Assembly: GCA_021732415.1 (NCBI GenBank)
Contig: JAKFVC010000248.1
Location: 1-64,000, forward strand
Direction: 5' to 3'
From: Planctomycetaceae bacterium
Lineage (GTDB): Bacteria; Planctomycetota; Planctomycetia; Planctomycetales; Planctomycetaceae
DNA: 64,000 nucleotides
Under the pieces are notes generated by a model that had not been told where the DNA came from, ran no database searches, and was given only the letters and a program-made list of their open reading frames with translations. This document shows positions 34,018 through 38,953 of the stretch, piece by piece. Made by a program: the position numbers and the translations under genes. Position 1 is the stretch's first letter; each line of letters starts with the position of its first letter.

Positions 34018-37000
34018 TTATGCCTTCGTGAGCCTCTGCACGGCTTCCAGATGGTGCTTCAGATCATCCTGCAACGGTTGCGATTTGGAATAGCCCAAGC
34101 GGCGGGAGAGGAATCGAAAGTCCTCCGTACCGCTGTCGGGGAGGGTTAAGTCGCGGGCATCGCCGCGGACCATACGCAGGGCATCGATCAACCGGCGCCA
34201 GAAGCGGTAGGCATCGCGCAGTGCCGAGACATCCTCGGCTGGTAAGACGGCGGTGGCTTCCAGGGCGGCTAGCGCCATCCACGTGTTCGTCGTGCGGAGG
34301 GATGGCAGCAGCTTTCCGTAGGTGATCTGCAGGCCTTGAATATAGTATTCGACATCGACCAATCCGCCGGGACTAAACTTCGCGTTGACCGTGCCCGCCG
34401 TGACGAGCTGCTGGACCTGCCGCTCGCGCATGCCGCGCATGGCTCGCATGTCGAAGGCCTCGCCGTGATAGAGCAGGGCGTCACGGGCGGCGACGATGCG
34501 TTGGCCGAATTCCTGGTCTCCGGCGATTGGACGTAGTTTCACGAGCGCTTGACGTTCGAACGGCCAGGCGGGGCCGCCGTGTTGAAAATAGGTTTCAAAC
34601 GTCGCTAGCGAAACCGGCAGATCTCCGGCGCGACCATAGGGTCTTAAGCGCCAGTCGACTTCAAAAATGCCTTCTCGTCGCGTCCTGAGGATGAGCGATA
34701 GTTTTTCGACGAGCTTTAAACAGTATTCTTTATTAGAGATGCTCTCGGGCCCGGTGGTTTCGCCCGGTCCGGCAAACAGGAGCATCAATTCGATGTCGGA
34801 CGCAAATCCTAGTTCGCGTCCGCCGCATTTCCCTAAGGCACATAAACTAATGGGGCAGGGTTGACGGATCTCATCGACGGCTGATTTCGAGGCTGGGGCT
34901 TCCTCATCGCGCGCGAGTTGCGGGACTCCAAAGCGACCCTGTAATTCTTCGAGGCACAGCTGCAACGAGCCGCGGACGACGACTTCGGCGACGTCGGTGA
35001 GTTCGTTAGAAAAATCGCCGAACTCTTTGATTTGCCCGAGAATGTGCCGCATGTCGACACGAAACATCTCGCGATCGCGAAACGCTTCCAATACTGCAAC
35101 ACGCTGGGCGTGGCCTTTAAAGTCCAGCAGTTGCTGTGCGAGTTGTTCGGCAAGTTCAGTCTGGGTGATGCGGCGCGAATGTTGAGCGACGTCCCGCACG
35201 ACGGGGAACAAATTCGCGTACTGCATGCGCAGAAAATCGTTCCACAGAAAGTCACTGACTCCTAATAAGCGCGCGAGTGCATCCAAGACATCGCTTTGTT
35301 CGAGCGATGCGATTTCACTGGGCCAATCGGGCCGCGTTGTCAGTTGAGCCAGGAATTCACGGAAGTGCAATAAGGCCGTCACGGGGTTGGGGCTGTGCGG
35401 CAGCAAATGCGTGAAATGTTTAATTAAGACGGTTGTCGTGCGCAGTTTTTGCAAGGCGTCGGGGTCGGTGATTTTCTTGCCGGTTTCGTCGGTGACGTAC
35501 AACGTATCGTTGGCGATGCCGTGTACGGTTTGTAGTTCGACGCAGCCGATGCTGACCCCATTTAAGGCGAGGGCGTGGGTTAGTTCATATAAGAACCCGG
35601 CGGTGTCCCGACCGCGGATCGTGAACACCGTATAACGTTCGGAGAGGGTGTTGTCGAAGTTGAGTTCGACAGGATATAAGGGGGCCTCGGAAGTGGATGT
35701 GTGCTCGATCGAGGCGGCGACTCGTTTGGCCAGGTCGCCTTGAGTCAGATGCCATTCACCGCGATGGAGCCGCCGCAGATAGCCGTGGAGTTCGTCGCGA
35801 TATTGCTTCCAGACGGTATCATCGTTGAGCGTTGCTGCCGTGGAGGGGACGTGGCCGTTGGTTGTCTCGACGGTTGATCTGCGGACTCGGAAGACGTCGA
35901 CAATCTTGGGGCGCGCTTCGTCGGCGGGGCTGTCTGAACCGTGATAGGTGAAGACTTGCCCCGACAAGATGTCGAATCCGTATTCGAACAGCAGGCCACA
36001 GATTAAGGAGAGCTCGCCGTGATAGTCGTAGGCGATGATCGTAATCTTCCATTCGTCCGGTCCGAGCGCGATGGGTTCGAGTACGATCAGATTCTCGTCA
36101 CTGATCAGTTGGGCCAGTTCGGAATGGTGGACGATCTCTAACGGCGAGAAGGCCTGCGAGTACGAATGGACCATGCGCGCCAGATGGCGTTCGACGGCCG
36201 ACACTTTGCGATCTTGGGGTTCGGGAGCGACCGGCAGCGGGTGGAGATAGCGTTGATAGACTTCACGGATGTGGACGCAGTGTTGCTCGAAGTGGCCGAG
36301 GAACGAGTTGATCGTGGGAAAATCGAGGCGTCGCGCGAGGTACTCTAATTCTTCCGGGTCGGTGGGCAACTGGTGCGATTGTTTATAGTGCAGCAACTGC
36401 AGCGCGTGCTCGACCTTTCTTAGAAAGACGTAGCCGTCGGTGAGAATGCGGTATTCGTCAGCCTGAAGCAAATCGGTTTCTGCCAGACGTACGAGAGCCT
36501 CCAACGTATTAAAAGTGCGAATTTCTGGTCGCGTCCCGCCGTGCCGCAATTGCAGATATTGGGCGACGAACTCCACATCGCGAATCGAGCCTACGCCTGA
36601 TTTGACATTACCCCAGGTCGAACCGTGCCCAATAACTCCGGCTTCGATGCTTTCCTTGGTTTCACGCACATTCTTTTGTAGGACGTCGGGCGCCGTATGA
36701 AATAGGAAGGGCGGCAACGATGCGAGAAACTTCTTGCCTACGGCGAAATCACCGGCGATGACGCGTGCTTTTAATAATGCCTGCAGCTCCCACAGGGCAG
36801 CGTTGTTTTTCAGATAGTCCGCATAGCTCTCTAACGAGGAGACGAGCGGCCCGGCTTTGCCCCAGGGTCTTAGACGCATATCGACCCGATATAAGAATCC
36901 CGCGCCCGTCTGACGGTTGAGGCCCTGTATGAGTCGCTGCCCAACTTGCCAATAGTCTTGCGGGTTCGATTCGGCCAGGAAGATCAGGTCGATGTCGGAA

Positions 37001-37734
37001 CTGTAATTCAGTTCTTCTCCGCCGAGTTTGCCCAGGGCGAGAATCGCCAAACCCTTCGTCGTCTGTTGCGAACGCTGGGCCGCCAGTTCGAGACACGCTT
37101 GCACGAGGCCATCTGCCAGCAAAGACAACTGGATCGTGACGGCCCGCAGGTCGACAATCCCAAACGCATCGCAGGCTCCGATCCGCAGGAGTTCCCAGCG
37201 CTGATAGCGCCGCAGGGCATCCAGTTGAATGGCTTCATCCAGCGAACCCGCGGTGCTGGCGAGGGCCTCGAGGTAGAATTCTTCGCGACACTTGAGTTCC
37301 GCGAGCTTTTGATGCTGTGTCAAGCGGGCCAGATAGTCCGGATTGGCGATCAGGATTTCCGCGAGAAACTGGCTGGAAACAAACAGCCGCAGCAGGATCT
37401 CGGTCGCTCGCGGCGTGGTATTGAGAAACCGGAATAACTCGACGCGATCGGGAACGCCTTGGGCAAATCGGGCGAACTGTACGACGGCCTGGTCAGGATT
37501 GGCCGATTCGGCCAGCAATCGCAGCAGCGCGGGGAGAACGTGGGCGAAATGCTCGGCGGCGTCGCCCGATCCGGCGGCGTCGGCGAGATGTTCAGCGCTG
37601 CGGCGGAGATCGGTCAGTCCGATTTCGGCGAGTTGTGTCTCCCAAGCGTGGCTGGTCGTCGGCAAAAGCATCAATAGTCCGTGGTCAAGATCGAGCAGGC
37701 CAGGGTTGGCCTGTTTATTATGGCTCACATTCAA
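34018..37734 (-). CDS. glnE: GlnE-type glutamine synthetase adenylyltransferase with inserted ACT domains
   Basis: The protein is about 1238 aa, longer than the usual GlnE (about 950). The N-terminal nucleotidyltransferase (normally deadenylylation) has GKLGGEELNYSSDIDLIFL at about 235-253. The C-terminal one (normally adenylylation) has GKCGGRELGFASDIELMLL at about 968-986. Between them are two segments that look like ACT domains, at about 561-640 (KITIIAYDYHGELSLICGLL) and 699-770 (YTVFTIRGRDTAGFLYELTH), the latter close to the ACT domains of GlnD. ACT domains bind amino acids, in GlnD glutamine. I infer direct glutamine sensing by this enzyme. The frame begins at TTG 37734; ATG 37671 is an alternative start. 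It lies 41 nt downstream of truB. Confidence 0.9.
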   Translation of the reverse strand: MNVSHNKQANPGLLDLDHGLLMLLPTTSHAWETQLAEIGLTDLRRSAEHLADAAGSGDAAEHFAHVLPALLRLLAESANPDQAVVQFARFAQGVPDRVELFRFLNTTPRATEILLRLFVSSQFLAEILIANPDYLARLTQHQKLAELKCREEFYLEALASTAGSLDEAIQLDALRRYQRWELLRIGACDAFGIVDLRAVTIQLSLLADGLVQACLELAAQRSQQTTKGLAILALGKLGGEELNYSSDIDLIFLAESNPQDYWQVGQRLIQGLNRQTGAGFLYRVDMRLRPWGKAGPLVSSLESYADYLKNNAALWELQALLKARVIAGDFAVGKKFLASLPPFLFHTAPDVLQKNVRETKESIEAGVIGHGSTWGNVKSGVGSIRDVEFVAQYLQLRHGGTRPEIRTFNTLEALVRLAETDLLQADEYRILTDGYVFLRKVEHALQLLHYKQSHQLPTDPEELEYLARRLDFPTINSFLGHFEQHCVHIREVYQRYLHPLPVAPEPQDRKVSAVERHLARMVHSYSQAFSPLEIVHHSELAQLISDENLIVLEPIALGPDEWKITIIAYDYHGELSLICGLLFEYGFDILSGQVFTYHGSDSPADEARPKIVDVFRVRRSTVETTNGHVPSTAATLNDDTVWKQYRDELHGYLRRLHRGEWHLTQGDLAKRVAASIEHTSTSEAPLYPVELNFDNTLSERYTVFTIRGRDTAGFLYELTHALALNGVSIGCVELQTVHGIANDTLYVTDETGKKITDPDALQKLRTTTVLIKHFTHLLPHSPNPVTALLHFREFLAQLTTRPDWPSEIASLEQSDVLDALARLLGVSDFLWNDFLRMQYANLFPVVRDVAQHSRRITQTELAEQLAQQLLDFKGHAQRVAVLEAFRDREMFRVDMRHILGQIKEFGDFSNELTDVAEVVVRGSLQLCLEELQGRFGVPQLARDEEAPASKSAVDEIRQPCPISLCALGKCGGRELGFASDIELMLLFAGPGETTGPESISNKEYCLKLVEKLSLILRTRREGIFEVDWRLRPYGRAGDLPVSLATFETYFQHGGPAWPFERQALVKLRPIAGDQEFGQRIVAARDALLYHGEAFDMRAMRGMRERQVQQLVTAGTVNAKFSPGGLVDVEYYIQGLQITYGKLLPSLRTTNTWMALAALEATAVLPAEDVSALRDAYRFWRRLIDALRMVRGDARDLTLPDSGTEDFRFLSRRLGYSKSQPLQDDLKHHLEAVQRLTKA

Positions 37735-37775: not shown

Positions 37776-38714
37776 TTAGGAATTATTACTCACTTCGCCG
37801 GAGTCGGTCGATTCCGTGTTGGGGTTCGTCAACGAATACCGATCGGTAAAAACTTGCGTGGGGCGTACTCGACCGAGAGTCCGCATCTCGCCCAAGGCTG
37901 CGAGTTCTCCCGTCGGAGTCAACAAGGCGACTCTGCTGTTTGCGGATAGATGAGTCAGGACAATCAGGCGACCGTGTGCGACGTCCCAGAGTTCGAGGTC
38001 CGAGCAGCGATGTTGAGGCCAATGTTCGACAGCCCGCACTGGCGAATGCAGATGTGCGGCGATGTTCGCTTTTTGTAGATCATCGGGTGCGACGGCGTCC
38101 GTGGATACGAACGATCCGATACGACTGCGGAGGAGGGCGGTCATCATCGCGCCGCATCCCAGTAGTTCGCCCAGATCCCGGCCGATCGAGCGGACATACG
38201 TTCCCGATCCACACTCCATCAGGAGTTCTAGCTTGGGCCACGCGTAGTCGACGATCTCCAGTCGAGACACATGGACTTGCCGCGGAGCGATATCGACTGC
38301 CTGTCCTTGTCGGGCCAGCGCGTAGGCTCGCTGGCCGTCGATGTGAATGGCCGAAAACTGGGGAGGCACCTGCCAGATGTCGCCGGTGAATTGCGGGAGC
38401 AGCGCTTCGATGTCGGCTCGAGAGGGAGGTTGGGGGACATCGACCGTCGTGATTTCACCGGTGCTGTCGTCGGTATCGCTGCGGCAACCAAGCTGGAAGA
38501 TCGCGTGATATTCTTTTTCTCGCTCCTGAGCACAAGTGATCAACCGCGTTGCGGCTCCTACCGCGACGATCAGGACCCCTTCCGCGAGCGGGTCCAGTGT
38601 CCCCGCGTGACCCGCTTTGGATGGTTTAACGAGACGCTCGACGCGGTTGACGACGTCGCGCGAGGACCAGCCAGCAGGTTTATAAACGTTCAACAATCCA
38701 GACGGCGGCGGCAT
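37776..38714 (-). CDS. truB: tRNA pseudouridine(55) synthase
   Basis: TruB (312 aa) makes pseudouridine 55 in the T loop of tRNAs. The catalytic aspartate lies in KAGHAGTLDPLAEGVLIVAV. Other family blocks are GLLNVYKPAGWSSRDVVNRV near the start, QVPPQFSAIHIDGQRAYALA and CGSGTYVRSIGRDLGELLGC. The ATG at 38714 (MPPPSGLLNVYKP) is chosen; the open frame also offers TTG 38735. It is probably cotranscribed with glnE. Confidence 0.95.
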   Translation of the reverse strand: MPPPSGLLNVYKPAGWSSRDVVNRVERLVKPSKAGHAGTLDPLAEGVLIVAVGAATRLITCAQEREKEYHAIFQLGCRSDTDDSTGEITTVDVPQPPSRADIEALLPQFTGDIWQVPPQFSAIHIDGQRAYALARQGQAVDIAPRQVHVSRLEIVDYAWPKLELLMECGSGTYVRSIGRDLGELLGCGAMMTALLRSRIGSFVSTDAVAPDDLQKANIAAHLHSPVRAVEHWPQHRCSDLELWDVAHGRLIVLTHLSANSRVALLTPTGELAALGEMRTLGRVRPTQVFTDRYSLTNPNTESTDSGEVSNNS

Positions 38715-38953
38715 GCGGTTCTCAGAAGCTTTCAACTAGTTCGAAGGCGAAAAACAGTGTCAGGCGAGCCCGGGTCTAACTCCCTGAGCTCACGTGTGCA
38801 GTACATCTTGCGGCATTACTCATCTGATTATCGCGAATAAGATACCTGTGGCAATGATGTTAACCCGAGTCTCTCAATTCGAACTCCGTAACAGGAGATA
38901 TGCGAAGTTGTGATGACGAAGGGTCGCAAAGACGTTAGTTTATAGGTTAATGG

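Follow-up and report, generated by a model that had tools for sequence, protein, structure and literature searches.

A GlnE-type adenylyltransferase of Planctomycetaceae whose linker holds a tandem ACT module of GlnD type, a probable glutamine sensor for glutamine synthetase control

The gene glnE-ACT, found in a 64,000-nucleotide stretch of DNA from a Planctomycetaceae bacterium (the window), encodes a full GlnE that carries a GlnD-type tandem ACT module in the linker between its two catalytic halves. In our favoured reading, which we consider probable, the protein is a bifunctional GlnE whose ACT pair senses glutamine, beside the GlnD-PII relay in Planctomycetaceae and in place of that relay in Chloroflexota, KSB1 and Calditrichota. 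What was observed is the architecture, the homology to the GlnD tandem ACT, the single origin and constraint of the family, the conserved target tyrosine of type I glutamine synthetase (GSI), and, in the genomes poor in PII, the adjacency of glnA and the absence of GlnD. In the textbook bicyclic cascade that controls glutamine synthetase (GS) in E. coli, the sensor GlnD, the messenger PII and the effector GlnE are separate proteins. If the favoured reading is true, a natural one-chain version shows how the GS cascade can collapse, explains covalent GS control in bacteria without PII, and offers a simple system for studying glutamine sensing by ACT domains and the contribution of the extra PII cycle. 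Profile libraries label these proteins plain GlnE, and the literature searched, with preprints and most subscription journals outside the search, gave no account of a GlnE with built-in ACT domains. The features of the gene, in window coordinates, are as follows.

34018..37734, minus strand: the glnE-ACT gene, an open frame of 1238 codons with TTG as the first in-frame start
36721..37395, minus strand: N-terminal nucleotidyltransferase, residues 114-338 (PF03710), with the motif GKLGGEELNYSSDID, invariant in the alignment, and D247, D249 and D285
36250..36609, minus strand: helical domain 1 (GlnD_UR_UTase, PF08335), residues 376-495
36100..36207, minus strand: GlnD-like pre-ACT helices, residues 510-545, from NCBIfam and hhalign to GlnD; helical in the AlphaFold2 model
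35878..36087, minus strand: ACT domain 1 (ACT1), residues 550-619, loop DYHGEL, from AlphaFold2, the GlnD profile and the invariant D and G of the loop
35707..35823, minus strand: inter-ACT helices, residues 638-676, from AlphaFold2
35425..35667, minus strand: ACT domain 2 (ACT2), residues 690-770, loop DTAGFLYEL, from PF24931/PF01842, the AlphaFold2 model and the invariant loop
35215..35424, minus strand: highly conserved ACT-to-AT junction, residues 771-840, KHFTHLLPHSPNP..FREFL..LLGVSDFLWNDFLRMQ, from homologue alignments
34021..35214, minus strand: C-terminal nucleotidyltransferase and helical domain, residues 841-1238 (Pfam), with the motif SDIE (D980, E982) and D1027

The ATG at 37671 (residue 22) may be the true start of the gene in place of the TTG, because homologues begin aligning near residue 22-38. 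The Pfam scan found two PF03710 (GlnE) and two PF08335 stretches in one chain, which is the layout of GlnE. The protein scored 621 bits against PRK11072, the NCBIfam equivalog for bifunctional GS adenylyltransferase (cut-off 487), and all 18 aligned members of the ACT-GlnE family matched the same model. From homology to the E. coli enzyme, the N-terminal half is predicted to remove adenylyl groups and the C-terminal half to add them. An assembly chimera or a frameshift fusion was ruled out by the identical junctions in dozens of independent genomes of several phyla. The gene lies next to truB (37776-38735), and downstream of it are an open reading frame matching a Mg-chelatase-like ATPase and a von Willebrand A open reading frame; these neighbours have no bearing on function.

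The preliminary description had placed two ACT-like segments in the linker, at residues 561-640 and 699-770, and had likened the second to those of GlnD. Both segments were recovered, with their bounds slightly shifted to about 550-619 and 690-770, and the resemblance to GlnD was found to extend over the whole tandem module. Residues 510-767, which comprise the pre-ACT helices, ACT1, the inter-ACT helices and ACT2, aligned with positions 688-918 of the NCBIfam GlnD equivalog NF003467 (940 long; E 1.7e-24) and with positions 616-843 of a second one, TIGR01693 (850 long; E 6e-21). Plain ACT models saw ACT2 of the window protein weakly: PF24931 matched residues 691-765 just below its cut-off (E 5e-5) and PF01842 gave an E of 0.07. 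Among the aligned homologues, PF24931 was matched by 22 of 22 and PF01842 by 17 of 22 (best 2e-9). When the ACT-GlnE family was compared with GlnD by hhalign, the alignment was colinear from the nucleotidyltransferase to ACT2 (198-768 to 59-880), and the HD domain alone was skipped. An HMM built from the inserts recovered each of the 12 GlnD-type proteins in the test set, E. coli GlnD at 4e-9 and the remaining ones at 5.6e-27 to 1.9e-20. It matched no canonical GlnE in the set, which included those of E. coli and of neighbouring families.

AlphaFold2 prediction of residues 500-800 with 22 sequences gave two ACT folds (mean pLDDT 84.7, pTM 0.84), whereas the relative placement of domains in the full-length model (pTM 0.52) is not counted as evidence. 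The ligand-loop pattern DxxG was invariant in both ACT domains in the alignment of 22 homologues; in the numbering of the aligned piece, the invariant residues are D71 and G74 in the ACT1 loop and D211, T212, G214, F215 and L216 in the ACT2 loop. The dN/dS of the ACT part (0.036-0.047) resembles that of the catalytic parts (0.026-0.045), which indicates that the ACT part is under constraint and rules out a decaying insert. Chance or weak ACT similarity was ruled out by the profile, fold and selection tests taken together.

Most structural neighbours of the ACT pair are regulatory regions that bind amino acids, among them those of aspartate kinase (Z 9.9), the large glutamate dehydrogenase of mycobacteria (9.0), threonine deaminase (8.4), CASTOR2 (7.5) and PGDH. 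Searching by sequence returned no solved structure for either E. coli GlnD or the ACT linker. Across ACT domains in general, many different amino acids serve as ligands and some domains take none; glutamine is the presumed ligand here. The pair might instead respond to another small molecule, such as glutamate or another amino acid, or a nucleotide, which would make the protein an allosteric GlnE and no glutamine sensor. We regard this as unlikely. It is consistent with the isoleucine, arginine and serine complexes among the structural neighbours and with the distance in sequence between the ACT pair and the GlnD ACT domains, E. coli GlnD being reached at just the E given above. However, the closest sequence relatives of the pair are the ACT domains of GlnD, which are thought to sense glutamine (PMC3173338), the target enzyme of ACT-GlnE makes glutamine, and where PII is absent, glutamine cannot act through it. 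The preliminary description had supposed that sensor and effector are combined in one chain; this is plausible, and with a GlnD-type tandem ACT it is the best explanation, in which the pair would bind glutamine.

The two active sites differ. Both halves keep the [DE]h[DE]h carboxylates and a third Asp, all invariant (DID with D285 and DIE with D1027), but the second site, SDIE at 34789-34797 (codons 980-982), has DxE where canonical GlnE has DxD. Nearly all ACT-GlnE, whatever their phylum, carry this D-to-E change in the second metal carboxylate as a fixed feature; of the second sites that the motif scan detected, DxD was seen only in L078 (f53), the earliest branch of the clade. Catalysis at the DxE site may be altered. 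It is very improbable, in our estimate, that the divergent C-terminal half has lost or changed adenylylation and that the main role of the protein is deadenylylation or the modification of some other target. Such a loss would fit the near-universal substitution and the finding that canonical C-terminal halves are closer to the N-terminal half of the window protein than to its C-terminal half. On the other hand, the nucleotidyltransferase superfamily tolerates [DE]h[DE]h, the third Asp and its surroundings are invariant in the C-terminal half, and half-length proteins in which the tandem ACT is followed by the C-terminal nucleotidyltransferase half alone would imply that this half is active. 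These half-length forms are encoded at L081:2715-5120 (minus strand; genome G060) and L085:2180-4774 (plus strand; genome G407), and the N-terminal removase half was not found on the adjoining stretches read. They are possibly one-way or self-reversing GS modifiers.

The genome scan returned 23 loci, which match most of the query length where the contig permits: 10 in Planctomycetota, 8 in Chloroflexota, 4 in KSB1 and 1 in Calditrichia. GlnE measures 1200-1390 aa in Planctomycetaceae and about 1040-1165 aa in other families of the class. In Planctomycetaceae ACT-GlnE is the usual form of GlnE, and it is likewise present in Chloroflexota, KSB1 and Calditrichota. The preliminary description had put the window protein at about 290 residues longer than usual, which is correct against E. 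coli GlnE (946 aa), whereas the excess is smaller against the canonical GlnE of the same class; by the latter comparison the insert itself is about 200-250 aa. With the ACT columns left out of the alignment, the tree grouped every GlnE that has ACT domains in a single clade (SH-aLRT 100), separate from the canonical planctomycete GlnE. The clade is ancient, and the simplest reading is that a single insertion later spread laterally from phylum to phylum.

In the genome of the window organism the amtB-glnK-glnB-glnD cluster is complete: it holds amtB, a pair of PII genes and glnD, whose 902-aa product has HD and ACT domains. Two extra PII-superfamily proteins are encoded in this genome (L003:1483-1794 and L004:230-532); the former is probably SbtB-like, since its gene comes after that of an SbtA-like membrane transporter. 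Within the family Planctomycetaceae the GlnD model was matched in 61 of 61 genomes (59 above the cut-off), and both GlnD and PII occur in each of the 10 other planctomycete genomes to which the ACT-GlnE loci led. A bypass of the GlnD-PII relay had been proposed, and the presence of glnD and glnB, together with a canonical regulatory interaction, had been named beforehand as speaking against it. As both genes were found, half of that counter-evidence is in hand, and a bypass as a necessity in the window organism is ruled out by the full set of relay genes.

For the non-planctomycete relatives, on the other hand, the proposed bypass is likely. Of the 21 genomes outside Planctomycetota that carry ACT-GlnE, none had GlnD; 13 of them came from the genome scan and 8 from phylum searches, the latter including G407 with its half-length form. 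Clear PII was absent from 17 of the 21, three of these 17 having no more than weak superfamily matches, and a strong PII match was found in four: two Chloroflexota and two KSB1-phylum genomes (G303, G304, G683 and G684). Some of these genomes are incomplete MAGs, but the PII-less locus L030 sits in a single-contig chromosome. No genome sampled from the KSB1 phylum had both GlnD, present in 4, and ACT-GlnE, present in 8. With GlnD missing throughout and clear PII missing from most of the set, the classical relay cannot operate in these lineages. Two Chloroflexota proteins, L087 (G415) and G399:C285, are GlnD-like, shorter (about 785 aa) and seemingly degenerate in the nucleotidyltransferase region, and the PII matches there are marginal. 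Three genomes of the KSB1 phylum (L134-L136; G648, G678 and G681) encode proteins of about 1000 aa, seemingly canonical GlnE by length, without GlnD; they differ in PII, which some have and others, G678 for example, lack.

The target enzyme was also examined. GSI of the window genome (L016) reads DKDIYDLKPEE at the adenylylation site, and the adenylylatable tyrosine is present. It is also kept in the GSI of those relatives that could be read, including PII-less genomes. Nine non-planctomycete loci have glnA within about 4 kb of glnE-ACT, several of them directly adjoining. These findings tie ACT-GlnE to GS also in genomes without PII. No GS match was found in G317 and G318, probably due to genome incompleteness.

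In the classical cascade glutamine is sensed by GlnD, probably with its two ACT domains (PMC3173338), the enterobacterial ATase needs PII or PII-UMP for its action, and its adenylylation is already glutamine-dependent (PMC6316151). In the favoured reading, the double-ACT module of a GlnD-like protein would have taken the place of the central regulatory region of GlnE or been added to it. The ACT pair would bind free glutamine, its most likely ligand, and the bound pair would shift the balance between the putative deadenylylating N-terminal and adenylylating C-terminal halves. High glutamine would presumably favour adenylylation of the GSI tyrosine and lower GS activity. In Planctomycetaceae, including the window genome, this would provide a direct, second glutamine input alongside the intact relay, although the module there may be redundant or tune the action of PII, GlnD and PII being present. 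In Chloroflexota, KSB1 and Calditrichota, without GlnD and mostly without PII, ACT-GlnE would stand in for the relay and could suffice alone. The stronger claim, that a self-contained glutamine-sensing GS switch replaces the whole bicyclic cascade in these three phyla and that Planctomycetaceae acquired the switch and run it in parallel to an intact cascade, is in our view evenly balanced. It is quite unlikely, by contrast, that the Planctomycetaceae enzyme is still run by PII and PII-UMP and that the module merely sets the glutamine response of a classical ATase, the protein being functionally an ordinary GlnE. The relay genes of the window genome, the GlnD matches throughout the family and the known glutamine dependence of the classical enzyme agree with that account; yet the canonical GlnE of neighbouring families has no ACT insert, and the PII-less relatives share 44-53% identity with the window protein over the full length, with the same junctions.

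Compared with known GlnE/GS-ATase (PF03710, PRK11072; E. coli structures 1v4a and 3k7d), the window protein has the same order of two nucleotidyltransferase and helical halves. It differs in having about 266 residues between the halves (about 510-775), where E. coli GlnE has about 67, and in the tandem ACT module of this linker, the DxE of the second site, and a C-terminal half and junction that form a separate clade. The region between the catalytic halves of the E. coli enzyme has been named the central regulatory domain (PMC12409994). With GlnD (TIGR01693, NF003467) the window protein shares the order of nucleotidyltransferase, helical domain, pre-ACT helices, ACT1, inter-ACT helices and ACT2. 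Its catalytic halves, however, are those of GlnE; the ACT pair is internal and followed by the second nucleotidyltransferase half, whereas that of GlnD is C-terminal; the Pfam scan found no HD domain, whose region hhalign skips; and its score against full-length TIGR01693 (74 bits vs 519) is below the equivalog level. GlnD-like ACT repeats are also common to the plant ACR proteins (ACR9/ACR11), from the first of which PF24931 takes its name, but these are eukaryotic and have no catalytic domain.
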